Shown piece by piece: positions 3,638 through 61,381 of a stretch of 64,000 nt of DNA (position 1 is the first letter of the stretch; each line of letters starts with the position of its first letter). The notes beneath the pieces were generated by a model. The model was given only the letters and a program-made list of their open reading frames with translations, did no database searches and was not told where the DNA came from. The stretch is taken from the NCBI GenBank assembly GCA_018662225.1, contig JABJGO010000049.1, positions 1 to 64,000 on the forward strand, given 5' to 3'. This DNA is from Rhodospirillales bacterium. GTDB taxonomy: Bacteria; Pseudomonadota; Alphaproteobacteria; Rhodospirillales; Casp-alpha2. The position numbers and the translations under genes are program-made.

Positions 3638-3787
3638 CGTTCTGATGCCTCTTACCTACCAATGTTTACTCAATGCCCTGAGCCGATATCGGCGCTTTAT
3701 GGCTGCCCAACGATCGGCTCTGTGAAACTTCGAGCTTCCTAAGGGCGTAAAATTACTTATAATGACATTCAGAACAAGTCGTATTAA

Positions 3788-3813
3788 ATCGATAATTAAA
3801 TCGTATAAACCGA
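3788..3813. promoter_or_regulatory. Possible autoregulatory operator before nhaR
   Basis: The AT-rich leader of nhaR carries ATCGATA at 3788-3794 and the related ATCGTATA just after it. The same ATCGATA core recurs three times between nhaR and nhaA. LysR-type regulators usually bind and repress at their own promoter, so this may be the autoregulatory site. The inference rests on sequence recurrence only. Confidence 0.35.
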
Positions 3814-4743: not shown

Positions 4744-4753
4744 CATCAACTCA

Positions 4754-4832
4754 TATCGCTCGATAAACATTCAGATTTTATCGATATAAATTGCGAAAAA
4801 TGCGACTTTATTTTTACTAAAATATCGATATA
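4754..4832. promoter_or_regulatory. Putative NhaR operator: three ATCG/CGAT elements
   Basis: Three related palindromic elements precede nhaA: TATCG-CT-CGATA at 4754-4765, and two identical copies of TATCGATATA at 4779-4788 and 4823-4832. The identical copies are 44 bases apart start to start, about four helical turns, so they lie on the same face of the DNA. LysR activators commonly bind several sites spaced in this way. The AT-rich run at 4806-4840 probably contains the nhaA promoter. Confidence 0.5.
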
Positions 4833-4904
4833 TATACCGTCTTTCATTGTGGAAATTTCGATACATTCCACGTCCCTTTAGGCGGCTTCCCCCGAGCTGT
4901 CTTG

Positions 4905-4975
4905 TGGCCCCCGTCCGCGAGGGGTATGTGTTTATACATTCCTCTCGCCAATCAGACAGGACGGGGGCCATTTTT
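4905..4975 (+). promoter_or_regulatory. Structured nhaA leader with terminator-like hairpin (candidate riboswitch)
   Basis: A 12-bp perfect stem pairs TGGCCCCCGTCC (4905-4916) with GGACGGGGGCCA (4959-4970) and is followed at once by TTTTT (4971-4975), as in an intrinsic terminator. Inside it lies a second hairpin, GCGAGGGG with CCTCTCGC plus ATGTG with TACAT, closing on a TTTA loop. A competing pairing joins CTGTCT (4897-4902) with AGACAG (4954-4959). It crosses the long stem, so it would be a pseudoknot or an alternative antiterminator fold. TGGAGA (4975-4980) can also pair with TCTCCA (5027-5032). The nhaA start is at 5077. Cation-responsive riboswitches (nhaA-I/Li+, Na+) are known before nhaA genes; I cannot confirm a match. 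Confidence 0.55.
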
Positions 4976-5076
4976 GGAGAACAACGTTCCACCATGTGGT
5001 TTTCAGTAGATATCAGTCGAGTGTGCTCTCCATGCAGCAAACCAGCCAACCGATTTGAGGGATGGAGCCTCCACCC

Positions 5077-6462
5077 ATGAGCGAAGAGCCAACCTTTGAT
5101 GCCTCCGTGAAGAAAGGCGTTTATCAAGCGCGTTGGGAGGCTGGTTTCGACCGAATTCTCACCCCGTTTGATGAGTTCATCAACCGTCAGACTACCAGTG
5201 GCTTTCTGTTGATGTGCATGGCTGTCATTGCTTTGGTCCTGGCCAACGGGCCGCTGGCACCCGCATATGCTTACATCCTGCATACCTCCGTCAGCCTCGC
5301 GGTCGGTAGCTGGGTACTTGAAATGACGTTGCACCACTGGATCAATGATGGATTGATGGTCCTGTTTTTCTTTGTCGTGGGTTTGGAGTTAAAGCGTGAA
5401 CTGGTGGTCGGCGAATTGGCAACGCCGCGCCATGCCGTCTTGCCCATTGCCGCTGCAATTGGCGGTATGGTTGTGCCTGCACTGATTTATTTTGCCATCA
5501 ATCCGAACGGTGATGCCGCCGCCGGGTGGGGCATACCGATGGCGACTGATATCGCATTCGCCATCGGCATCGTTGCTCTGTTAGCGAGCCGTGTCCCCAA
5601 AGCCCTGATAACATTTCTGGTGGCACTAGCCATTGTGGATGATCTGGGTGCCGTGATGGTTATAGCTGTGTTCTATACCGATACCATCGCGCTCGTCCCT
5701 CTGATGGTTTCATTCGGTCTCTTCACCGTGTTGCTGTGTTTCAATCTGGGCGGTATCCGCAATCCTATTCCATACTTCATCGTGTCGGTCTTGATGTGGT
5801 ATGCCTTGCAGCAATCGGGCGTGCACGCGACCCTTGCGGGTATTATGGGCGCTTTGTCGGTGCCGGCGACACCCAAGTATAATCCAACGCGATTCAGCGA
5901 GTATGTTAAAAAGCTAATGGAGCGTTTCGACGCAAGCCACCAGCCTGACCGTAGCATTATGACCAACGACAGGCTTCGCGCTGTGGTGCAGGCGCTGGAG
6001 AACTCGGTCCATAAAGTTGAGGCCCCGTTGCAACGGCTGGAACATGTCTGGCATATGCCAGTGGCCTATCTGGTGATCCCTATATTCGCGTTAGCCAACG
6101 CCGGGATTCCCATAGAAATCGGCTCGCTAAGTGAAACCTTCAGCCACCCTGTATTGCTCGGTGTTTCGTTCGGACTGGTGTTGGGGAAGTTTGTTGGCAT
6201 CACAGGTGCTAGCTGGCTGGTCCTGAAACTTGGTGTGGCCGTGCTACCAAAAGACACCCGGTTCACCCAGATTGCGGGTGTTTCCCTACTGGCCGGAATC
6301 GGATTTACAATGTCGATATTTGTCGCCCAGCTCGGCTTTGGCGAAAGTGAGGAGCTGTTGCTCATGGCAAAAACAGGTATCCTCGCCGCTTCATTGTTCG
6401 CCGGTGTTGCCGGGTTCTTGTGGCTCTATCTGGTTAGCCGACCTGCTGAGGCCGAAGCATAA
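5077..6462 (+). CDS. nhaA: Na+/H+ antiporter NhaA
   Basis: A 461-residue inner-membrane antiporter that exports Na+ or Li+ in exchange for protons. It has about twelve hydrophobic segments, ATDIAFAIG, the ion-binding Asp-Asp pair in AIVDDLGAVMVIAVFYT, and the conserved Lys in LGKFVGI. It is longer than the 388-residue E. coli protein because of an N-terminal extension and a hydrophilic insert of about 45 residues around ERFDASHQPDRS, as in other alphaproteobacterial NhaA proteins. I chose ATG 5077: GGAG at 5064-5067 is nine bases upstream, whereas the in-frame ATG at 5062 has its purines touching the start codon. Regulation is probably by NhaR plus the structured leader. Confidence 0.95.
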   Translation: MSEEPTFDASVKKGVYQARWEAGFDRILTPFDEFINRQTTSGFLLMCMAVIALVLANGPLAPAYAYILHTSVSLAVGSWVLEMTLHHWINDGLMVLFFFVVGLELKRELVVGELATPRHAVLPIAAAIGGMVVPALIYFAINPNGDAAAGWGIPMATDIAFAIGIVALLASRVPKALITFLVALAIVDDLGAVMVIAVFYTDTIALVPLMVSFGLFTVLLCFNLGGIRNPIPYFIVSVLMWYALQQSGVHATLAGIMGALSVPATPKYNPTRFSEYVKKLMERFDASHQPDRSIMTNDRLRAVVQALENSVHKVEAPLQRLEHVWHMPVAYLVIPIFALANAGIPIEIGSLSETFSHPVLLGVSFGLVLGKFVGITGASWLVLKLGVAVLPKDTRFTQIAGVSLLAGIGFTMSIFVAQLGFGESEELLLMAKTGILAASLFAGVAGFLWLYLVSRPAEAEA

Positions 6463-9751: not shown

Positions 9752-11908
9752 ATGAGCACGGATAATAAAAACGCCACGGTCAACAATTGGCAGGAAGCCG
9801 CCACAAAGGAATATAAGGGCACAGCCCCCGAAGACCGGACGTGGATGACGCCCGAAGGCATTCCGGTGAAGCAGCTTTACACGGCGGCTGATCTGGAAGC
9901 GATGGAGGGTACCGACACCATGCCGGGTTTCGCGCCCTATACGCGTGGCCCACGCGCGACCATGTACACGGGTCGACCGTGGACCATTCGACAGTACGCC
10001 GGTTTCTCCACCGCCGAAGAATCCAACAAGTTCTATCGCGATAACCTGGCAGGCGGTCAAAAAGGCCTGTCGGTTGCGTTCGATCTGGCCACGCACCGGG
10101 GGTATGATTCCGATCACCCGCGTGTTGTGGGCGATGTGGGCAAAGCCGGGGTTGCCATCGACAGTGTTGAAGATATGAAAATTCTGTTCGACGGCATCCC
10201 GCTGGATGAGATGAGCGTCAGCATGACCATGAACGGTGCCGTCCTGCCTGTGCTGGCGGGCTATATCGTGGCCGCCGAAGAACAGGGCGTTGCGCCCGAT
10301 AAACTATCCGGCACCATTCAGAACGATATTCTGAAAGAGTTCATGGTCCGTAACACCTTTATCTATCCGCCCGAGCCCAGCATGCGGGCCGTGGCTGATA
10401 TTATTGAGTACACGTCAACCAACATGCCACGTTTCAACTCCATCTCCATTTCCGGCTATCACATGCAGGAAGCTGGCGCGACCGCGGTTCAGGAACTGGC
10501 CTTCACCATTGCGGACGGGGTTGAGTATGTTCGCGCTGCCTTGTCCAAAGGCCTGGATGTGGACGCTTTTGCGCCGCGCCTGTCGTTCTTTTTCGCGATC
10601 GGCATGAACTTTTTTATGGAGATCGCCAAGCTGCGCGCCGCGCGTTTGTTGTGGGCGGAACAGATGGCCCCGTTCAAACCCACCAACCCGCAAAGCTCCA
10701 TGCTGCGCACCCATTGCCAGACTTCGGGCGTGTCGCTGACAGAGAAGGATCCTTACAATAACGTGGTCCGCACCACCATTGAAGCCATGGCCGCTGTGCT
10801 GGGTGGCACGCAGAGTCTGCACACCAATGCGCTGGACGAAGCCGTTGCGTTGCCGACACCATTCTCGGCCCGCATCGCGCGTAACACGCAACTGGTCCTG
10901 GCCGAAGAAACCGGCATCACCAACGTGATCGATCCGCTCGGCGGCAGCTACTATGTGGAAAGCCTGACCGCGTCCATCGCCAGCGAGGCCCGCAAGCTGA
11001 TTAAGGACGTGGAAGACCTGGGCGGTATGACCAAGGCCGTTGAATCCGGCATGCCCAAACGCGCTATCGAAGAATCCGCCACGCGCCGGCAGGCCCGCGT
11101 GGACCTGGGCGAAGACGTGGTTGTGGGGGTGAACAAGTATCCACTGGATCAGGAAGCCGAGCTGAATATTCTGGAAATCGACAACACGGCGGTCCGCGAA
11201 AACCAGATCGCAAGGCTGAACCATATCCGCGCCACCCGTGACGAGGCCGCCTGTCAGGCCACGCTTGATGCGCTGACCGCAGCGGCGGAAAGTGGCGAAG
11301 GAAATCTGCTGGAACTATCCATCAATGCCTCGCGTGCGCGTGCTTCGGGTGGTGAAATTACCCAAGCGTTGGAAAAAGTATATGGCCGCCATCAACCCAT
11401 CACCACTTCTATTCACGGGGTTTATTCCAAAGCCTACGAAGGTGACGAGGAATTCGAATCCATCCGCAGTGACGTGGCCACGTTTGAGAAAACAGAAGGC
11501 CGCCGACCTAGAATGTTAGTCGCCAAAATGGGTCAGGACGGTCACGACCGCGGTGCCAAGATCATCGCCACGGCCTTTGCCGACATCGGCTTTGATGTGG
11601 ACATCGGTGCGCTGTTCCAGACACCTGATGAGACCGCCCGCGAAGCCATCGAAAACGATGTGCACGTGGTTGGAGTGTCCTCACAAGCGGCCGGACACAA
11701 AACACTGGTGCCGCTACTACTCAAGGCACTGGCCGATCAGGACGCATCCGATATTCTGGTTGTGGTGGGCGGCGTTATCCCGGCCCAGGATCACGAGTTC
11801 CTAAAGGGCGAAGGTGTTGCCGCGATCTTTGGGCCGGGTACGCATATACCGACGGCGGCTCGGGAAATTCTTGGGGTGATTAAGAAGCAGCGTGAGGCGG
11901 CGGCCTGA
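9752..11908 (+). CDS. scpA: Methylmalonyl-CoA mutase
   Basis: A 718-residue adenosylcobalamin enzyme that interconverts succinyl-CoA and (R)-methylmalonyl-CoA, used in propionate and branched-chain amino acid breakdown. The substrate-binding TIM barrel fills the first ~560 residues ([46 protein letters not shown]). The B12 domain follows, with the DxHxxG cobalt-ligand motif in [14 protein letters not shown] at about residue 597 and GGVIP further on. The length matches single-gene (ScpA/McmA, homodimeric) or large-subunit forms; no small subunit, epimerase or MeaB-type GTPase is adjacent. GGAG lies nine bases upstream of the ATG. Its 3' end overlaps the antisense end of the capsid gene by 29 bases. 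Confidence 0.96.
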
Positions 11909-12725
11909 TTGGGACTTGACTGGCATTGCCCGTTAATACAATTGCGAATATATTTGCCTTATGAAAAATGCCACTATTGTTAATGAAATTTGCGGCGCGA
12001 TCACCGTGCCATGTGACGTCCGTTTTGACGTCTGACCCGATGGCGTGACCGATCGCGGTGCGGTGATACCAGTAACAATACCGGATGCTACTTGCTTTGG
12101 TCAGACCAGAATGCGGAATCCACAGGGCACCCAGCCATTTCTTGGCTTGTGTGCCACGCCAGGGAAGTTCGTCTTCTCCCACGTAATCCGCGTTGGCAAA
12201 CTCCTGAATGTTCAGCAGGTCAGACCATTGTTTCCAGCCAACGGCCGCGTACCGTTCACCGTCATCCGGTACATCGGCCTCGCCCAGCATTTCGAACGCT
12301 GTCAGGACTTTGTCCTTGGTCAGGCCGTCGGAGCCATCACCGGCATAGTTGGTTGATGTATCGAACTGGTTAATGATCAGCTCGTCGGTCTTGCGACCCA
12401 GTGCATAAGCACCAGCACGCGCGGTGACTGTCCGCTCATTTGTGTTGGCTTTGAGCTCATCAAGTGAATCCACCCAGTCACCAGCATAAAAATCTGATAA
12501 CTGACATTCCACAGGGGTGTGGTCGATGTTCATGACGGGCACTTTGCCATGGCGTGCTTTGGTGCTGGCGGTCCCTTTTCCAACTTTCTGGAAAGTGGTG
12601 CTAGCGCCGATAATGCTGTCCTTTACACGGACAGTATTTCGCAGTTTTGAGCCCATCTGCTGGTATTGCAAATGAACGTCAGCCTGAAAGTGCTTCACGA
12701 ACGATTGTTCGACGGTTGTCGACAT
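11880..12725 (-). CDS. Phage major capsid protein, probable altered C-terminus
   Basis: A 281-residue protein resembling the major capsid proteins of some podoviruses: [24 protein letters not shown] at the start, then [17 protein letters not shown] and the coat-fold region with [12 protein letters not shown], ending in [11 protein letters not shown]. After that point the last ~30 residues do not look like a capsid C-terminus (basic, with a [10 protein letters not shown] end) and are encoded partly antisense to the mutase gene. A deletion or frameshift at about 11,990 that moved the stop is likely. GGAGAACGGA precedes the ATG at 12725. It is separated from the scaffold gene by the two sensor genes and the peptidoglycan-binding gene. 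Confidence 0.75.
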
Positions 12726-15922: not shown

Positions 15923-15942
15923 TGAAATGATCTCCTGTTATG

Positions 15943-15976
15943 AAAAATGGGGGATCGTGCCCGGGCACAATCCCCC
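15943..15976 (-). terminator. Intrinsic terminator after the scaffold gene
   Basis: On the minus strand GGGGGATTGTGCCC pairs with GGGCACGATCCCCC (one mismatch) and is followed by ATTTTTC. The hairpin occupies 15949-15976 and the T-run 15943-15947. It lies between the scaffold gene and the peptidoglycan-binding gene and should lower expression of the latter relative to the head genes, unless that gene has its own promoter. Confidence 0.85.
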
Positions 15977-16018
15977 ATGCGGTGGGTGCTGCGGAAAGGC
16001 ACGCGCTCACCACCGCAT
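15977..16018. repeat. Second hairpin behind the scaffold gene
   Basis: ATGCGGTGG (15977-15985) pairs perfectly with CCACCGCAT (16010-16018); an inner GTGC/GCAC pair extends the fold. It abuts the terminator hairpin. It has no T-tract of its own on either strand, so it may be an RNA-stability element or part of a two-stem terminator. Confidence 0.6.
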
Positions 16019-18784: not shown

Positions 18785-18817
18785 AAAAAAAGCCCGCCGA
18801 GGGTTGTCGGCGGGCTT
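18785..18817 (-). terminator. Intrinsic terminator upstream of the portal gene
   Basis: On the minus strand AAGCCCGCCGA pairs perfectly with TCGGCGGGCTT (hairpin 18790-18817), followed by TTTTTT down to 18785. It ends transcripts coming from the two unknown phage-type genes at 18873-19722 before the portal gene. Confidence 0.93.
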
Positions 18818-18872
18818 TGGACACACGTGTGCCCTGCGCTGAAATGAGTTGTCGCACAAAAATATCAAAAAG

Positions 18873-49183: not shown

Positions 49184-49747
49184 ATGCGTATCGTGGGCGG
49201 CAATTTAAAAGGACGAACCATCAAGGCACCGGCGGGCGCTGACGTGCGGCCCACGTCGGACCGGGCACGGGAATCCTTGTTCAATGTGTTGCTCAATGGG
49301 CGTAATGCCATTGACTTGAATGGCGCCAGGGTTCTGGACGTGTTTGCCGGTACCGGCGCGCTGGGACTGGAGGCGCTGTCACGTGGAGCGGCGCATGCTG
49401 TGTTTGTGGATAACAACCGACCGTCCATCGCTTGTATCAAAGGCAATGCTGAAACCTTCAACGTCACAGGTGATATCAGCATTATAAGCGGCGATGCCCG
49501 CACGGTCGGAAAGCCTCCGCCTGTTCTGGGTGCGGGTGCGGATGTGGTTTTTCTGGACCCGCCCTATAAACAGGATCTGGTAATACCCAGTCTGGAGCGA
49601 TTGGTGGATCAGGGCTGGGTTAGCGCTGATTGTATGGTTATCGCAGAAACCGAAGCGGATTATGAATTGCCACGGGTAGCAGGATTTGATGACGTGGATA
49701 GCCGCAAGTACGGTGCGGCGCGCATAACATTCCTACGCCGCGTCTAG
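49184..49747 (+). CDS. rsmD: 16S rRNA (guanine-966-N2)-methyltransferase
   Basis: A 187-residue methyltransferase. It opens MRIVGGNLKGRTIKAPAGADVRPTSDRARESLFN, has the SAM motif VLDVFAGTGALGLEALSRGA and the catalytic FLDPPYKQ. It methylates G966 of 16S rRNA. It begins three bases after the rluB stop, and its own stop is the first three bases of the long inverted repeat shared with mutL. Confidence 0.95.
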   Translation: MRIVGGNLKGRTIKAPAGADVRPTSDRARESLFNVLLNGRNAIDLNGARVLDVFAGTGALGLEALSRGAAHAVFVDNNRPSIACIKGNAETFNVTGDISIISGDARTVGKPPPVLGAGADVVFLDPPYKQDLVIPSLERLVDQGWVSADCMVIAETEADYELPRVAGFDDVDSRKYGAARITFLRRV

Positions 49748-49815
49748 AGCCTAGTCCTATCTTATAGGCTCATCTGCCGTCATCAAATGGGCCTATAAGA
49801 TAGGACTAGGCTCTA
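49745..49815. terminator. 29-bp inverted repeat between convergent rsmD and mutL
   Basis: The arms at 49745-49773 and 49787-49815 are identical palindromic partners over 29 bases apart from a single T/G pair (TAGAGCCTAGTCC... at the left). The loop is 13 bases. Each arm begins with the TAG stop of one gene: rsmD on the plus strand, mutL on the minus strand. No T-tract follows on either strand, so it is not a textbook terminator, though such a hairpin could end transcripts in both directions. It may instead be a genomic palindromic repeat (REP/MITE-like). Confidence 0.8.
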
Positions 49816-61267: not shown

Positions 61268-61381
61268 TTGACAATGATGTGAGTTTGTGCTTGAGTATCC
61301 TAAGCGCACGGCACCGATGTGCCTGATTTCTAACGTCACACACATAACCGCTGCTCCTTGGTTGGAGGCAGCGGTTTTTTT
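61268..61381 (+). ncRNA. Candidate small RNA (promoter plus intrinsic terminator)
   Basis: TTGACA (61268-61273) is followed after 17 bases by TTGAGT preceded by TG at minus-one position (extended -10 type). A transcript from about 61303 would contain the hairpin GGCAC-CGAT-GTGCC and end in an intrinsic terminator: AACCGCTGC-TCC pairs with GGA-GGCAGCGGTT (61346-61376, one bulge) and TTTTTTT (61375-61381). Length would be about 80 bases. It could be an independent sRNA or an attenuator before the 61414 gene. The -10 match is weak. Confidence 0.5.

Follow-up and report, generated by a model that had tools for sequence, protein, structure and literature searches.

The question raised by this locus is whether the structured segment between nhaR and nhaA regulates the antiporter gene and, if so, by what means. 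The DNA analysed was a single stretch of 64,000 nucleotides (the window). The original prediction had placed a structured leader about 100 bases before an antiporter gene with its own LysR-type activator, and both gene identities were confirmed by profile searches: the NhaR equivalog model scored 233.9 bits against a cut-off of 219 (NCBIfam), which makes the activator a member of that family, and NhaA also scored above its cut-off (Table 1). Translation of nhaA would begin at either 5062 or 5077, of which the latter has the better-placed GGAG, and the T-run of the leader is therefore 87-102 nt from the start. A terminator-like hairpin lies 160 nt 3' of the nhaR stop. Elsewhere in the window, an ORF on the minus strand (11880-12725), directly behind a methylmalonyl-CoA mutase gene, resembles a phage major capsid protein by eye only.

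The core of the leader is a 12-bp stem followed by a T5 run, and both were found a few bases at most from their predicted positions; the enclosed second hairpin was recovered by folding. The GC-rich stem (4905-4970) is directly followed by TTTTT (4971-4975), which is the sequence pattern of an intrinsic terminator. The T-run is present only on the plus-strand side of the stem, the other side having none, and it is short (ATTTTTGG). At -47.5 kcal/mol, the fold of the 96-nt leader is far more stable than those of dinucleotide shuffles (-28.6 +/- 3.3 kcal/mol; z -5.74; equalled by 0 of 200 shuffles). At least this stability was found in only 10 of the 10,652 sliding 96-mers taken from both strands of the window, and those ten come from three places, the nhaA leader and two others at 49.7 and 15.9 kb. 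A terminator-like leader structure before nhaA, beside a genuine nhaR gene, is supported. On both strands, no fold in the window is more stable than that of the near-perfect inverted repeat at 49745-49815, whose arms measure ~25 bp (TAGAGCCTAGTCCTATCTTATAGGC ... GCCTATAAGATAGGACTAGGCTCTA); the strong hairpin at 15925-15980 (ATGGGGGATCGTGCCCGGGCACAATCCCCCAT) has its T-run on the minus strand and is probably a terminator.

Table 1. Features of the nhaR-nhaA region (positions in the window).
Feature	Position	Strand	Description and basis
nhaR, LysR-type activator of nhaA	3826-4743	+	NCBIfam NhaR equivalog; HTH_1, LysR_substrate
Probable NhaR-controlled promoter region, AT-rich (putative promoter)	4755-4866	+	TATCGATATA boxes at 4779 and 4823; TTTCGATACA at 4855
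P1 hairpin AGGCGGCTT[CCCCC]GAGCTGTCT	4880-4902	+	9 bp; MFE and centroid fold
5' arm of alternative (antiterminator-like) pairing	4889-4902	+	partner 4954-4967; inverted repeat
Terminator-like element	4905-4975	+	12-bp stem, 42-nt enclosed part, T5 tail
12-bp stem TGGCCCCCGTCC/GGACGGGGGCCA	4905-4916/4959-4970	+	perfect; loop 42 nt (inverted-repeat search)
Enclosed hairpin GCGAGGGG-T-ATGTG-TTTA-TACAT-T-CCTCTCGC	4917-4948	+	13 pairs; stacked on 12-bp stem (folding)
One-sided bulge CAATCAGACA	4949-4958	+	contains most of the AGACAG partner (folding)
T5 run (TTTTT)	4971-4975	+	directly 3' of 12-bp stem
Weak hairpin CTCTCCATGCAGC.../...GGGATGGAG	5026-5067	+	covers probable ribosome-binding region; inverted repeats, centroid fold
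nhaA, Na+/H+ antiporter	5062-6462	+	PF06965 E 9.5e-142; TIGR00773 401 bits vs cut-off 254

A Li+- or Na+-responsive riboswitch had been suggested for this position. No Rfam family reached its gathering score in the window, and a scan of the leader up to E=10 returned no credible match, only unrelated ones at chance level. The nhaA-I motif (RF03057, Li+-I) did not reach its gathering threshold in the window or in the organism's own genome, although matches above the cut-off were present in Caulobacter and, within the same order, in 4 of 140 genomes. Neither nhaA-II (Li+-II) nor DUF1646 (Na+-I) was matched in whole-Rfam scans, their models being assumed to be part of Rfam 15, and Rfam searches of 40 nhaA loci (L003-L042, from the order sample and the nearest nhaA relatives) found no riboswitch or other cis-regulatory RNA. 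The covariance-model scans of window, leader and own genome rule out a known Li+ or Na+ riboswitch; its position before nhaA, and nothing else, speaks for one, and there is next to no chance that the leader belongs to the Li+-I, Li+-II or Na+-I class. In PMC9646797, terminator-type expression platforms are described only for variant members of the nhaA-I motif class in Deltaproteobacteria, variants that the paper links to Na+ sensing.

The leader had also been proposed to switch between terminator and pseudoknot forms through a crossing pairing of CTGTCT (4897-4902) with AGACAG (4954-4959). This complementary match exists, but taken alone it is weak, as 7% of random 55-mers also contain a 6-nt crossing match. 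A longer alternative pairing, CCCCCGAGCTGTCT/AGACAGGACGGGGG (4889-4902/4954-4967), has this match at its end and pairs at 12 of 14 positions. Among 5' regions that were random or shuffled, 1.2-1.5% equalled the energy of that duplex (-24.4 kcal/mol), for a pairing chosen post hoc. The P1 hairpin, which lies mostly 5' of the interval first singled out (4897-5032), contains CTGTCT and competes for it. The strand at 4954-4967 is used by both the terminator and the alternative pairing, which makes them mutually exclusive.

Energies and geometry both bear on whether such a switch could operate. The alternative fold (-40.3 kcal/mol) is weaker than the terminator fold (-56.1 kcal/mol) by ~16 kcal/mol; the terminator is therefore the default fold, and unaided switching is unlikely. 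In an H-type pseudoknot only 2 nt (4903-4904) would separate the 5' strands and 0 nt the 3' strands, with ~17 bp to span. A 2-nt linker cannot cross a continuous helix of that length, and a coexisting pseudoknot is ruled out. The competing pairing for the 3' arm of the terminator thus stood, whereas the pseudoknot alongside the full stem did not: on the predicted pairings, the terminator arm and the 4889-4902/4954-4967 duplex can be alternatives at most, never both, and a switch between them is weakly supported. Closer to nhaA, the 5' arm of the weak hairpin at 5026-5067 could alternatively pair with TGGAGAACA at 4975-4983, just past the T-run, and this hairpin might add a translational layer of control.

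Whether the hairpin is part of the nhaA transcript depends on where the promoter lies. Three WTCGAW boxes were found in 4744-4880 (span 4779-4862), a number reached by 0.08% of shuffles, and the interval 4881-5061, from the hairpin to nhaA, has none. A box of this kind often precedes an nhaR homologue: 18 of 32 have one at most 65 nt from the start, compared with 2.4 expected, and the boxes agree with the E. coli NhaR consensus, TCgaAAAAatCtA (PMC6307784). In other proteobacteria, several nhaR homologues are preceded by two WTCGAW boxes spaced by exactly 31 nt, and such pairs may represent a general NhaR operator. At the present locus, TCGA-type boxes stand before nhaR (3780-3800) as well as before nhaA (4779-4862). 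A search for sigma-70-like promoters gave no match in the stretch from the hairpin to nhaA, nor any upstream of the hairpin. The restriction of the boxes to the upstream side, and their frequency before nhaR homologues, suggest that the nhaA promoter is likely to lie upstream of the hairpin, in which case the hairpin would belong to the nhaA leader.

Relatives of the leader were sought with a covariance model built from this one sequence; such a model has little power for distant relatives, and it found only itself in samples of 317 genomes of the order, 385 of the class and 398 of the phylum. Covariance searches of the genomes that hold the nearest nhaA relatives, and of the nhaA loci L003-L005 and L032-L042, returned no homologue, and by eye the 15 nearest nhaA relatives have no similar upstream element; a conserved nhaA leader was rejected on these grounds. 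The genome has a single occurrence of the stem pattern, and no DNA match was found in 60 relatives, phages or plasmids; a repeat family and a mobile element were rejected on this basis. Most of the nearest nhaA genes come from Gammaproteobacteria (~74% identity to Methylophaga). In Methylophaga (L033) and an Ectothiorhodospiraceae MAG (L036), nhaR is directly upstream of nhaA in the same direction and there is no such hairpin.

In G001, the only genome of the same genus, nhaR survives as a broken remnant next to a BI-1 gene fragment (L168/L169, G001:C276), the truncated BI-1 gene being fused to a Usp-like stretch, and no close nhaA was found (no match at E <= 1e-60). The remnant and the truncated gene suggest that the nhaR-nhaA locus has decayed in G001; because the remnant is kept there, nhaR occupied this place before the species arose. 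About 60 nt past the remnant is a GGCCCC...GGGGGCC ATTTT hairpin, and the sequence downstream of the remnant does not align with the present leader. The leader is thus a single-genome feature without comparative support.

The reading that we favour, with a likelihood somewhat short of even, is that an intrinsic terminator within the untranslated nhaA leader acts as an attenuator. The stem, the T-run, the competing complementarity, the identities of NhaR and NhaA and the box positions were shown by the analysis, and the following course of events would build on them. NhaR would activate a promoter at its own TCGA boxes (~4755-4866), and polymerase would next transcribe P1 together with the 12-bp stem, its U-tract and the hairpin that it encloses. 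In the default course CUGUCU would be held by P1, the long stem would close and much transcription would end near 4975. Read-through to nhaA would require closure of the stem to be delayed or prevented, possibly by the 4889-4902/4954-4967 pairing or by occupation of the leader by a ribosome or a protein. A leader peptide was rejected: by eye there is only one 10-codon GTG frame, and it has no evident ribosome-binding site. The attenuator is favoured by the orientation of stem and T5 and the fold strength, and the upstream-only boxes and the exclusive use of 4954-4967 would also fit it. Against it stand the short T-run and the energy gap in favour of the default fold, and the empty homologue searches and the hairpin-free nhaR-nhaA operons of L033 and L036 likewise weigh against it.

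A serious rival, second after the attenuator and less probable, is a plain insulating terminator that ends the nhaR transcript, nhaA being transcribed from its own promoter in 4976-5062 with no switching. Ordinary stem-plus-T terminators do occur in the window (18789-18818 and 61346-61376), and the GC-rich hairpin with ATTTT after the G001 remnant, whose sequence does not align with the present one, makes a GC-rich terminator behind nhaR unremarkable. However, the NhaR-type boxes, all upstream of the hairpin, would be distant from a downstream start by the usual standards of LysR-type activation, and the region downstream of the hairpin has no promoter-like match. The long stacked rod with its one-sided bulge would also suit an improbable third role, that of a stable rod that is protective or processed (an RNase III site or the 3' end of a small RNA) and not a regulated terminator. 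A ~100-nt RNA could begin near 4860 and finish at 4975, but the T5 and its orientation suit termination better, and no Rfam sRNA match was above threshold.

The three mutually exclusive pairings centred on one strand, and the low chance frequency of the alternative duplex, could instead reflect an undescribed, lineage-restricted switch that responds to a ligand or protein and consists of P1, the terminator and that duplex. The post hoc choice of pairing, the large energy gap, the lack of relatives and the absence of a recognisable conserved aptamer-like core argue against this, and we regard it as quite improbable. Very improbable is the more specific idea that nhaA has an additional ion or pH sensor, independent of NhaR, in the form of a lineage-specific leader RNA that adopts either the terminator or the 4889-4902/4954-4967 pairing.

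If the attenuator reading is correct, nhaA would be under two layers of control, NhaR activation and conditional termination, and this control would belong to none of the known Li+ and Na+ riboswitch classes; if it is not, the element is an ordinary terminator. The Li+-I riboswitch (nhaA-I, RF03057; PMC9646797) is likewise located in the leader of an nhaA gene, but its own covariance model does not match the present leader. Intrinsic terminators and leader attenuators share with the present leader a GC-rich stem, a U-tract, a position upstream of a gene and, on its predicted folds, an overlapping alternative pairing; the present leader differs in its 42-nt enclosed part with a hairpin of its own and in a T-run of only five. 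As in E. coli nhaAR control, an NhaR-family regulator is encoded beside nhaA and TCGA-type boxes are repeated. The arrangement differs from that of the E. coli nhaAR operon, where ~60 nt separate the genes (PMC4182557), in that nhaR here precedes nhaA across a gap of 318 nt.
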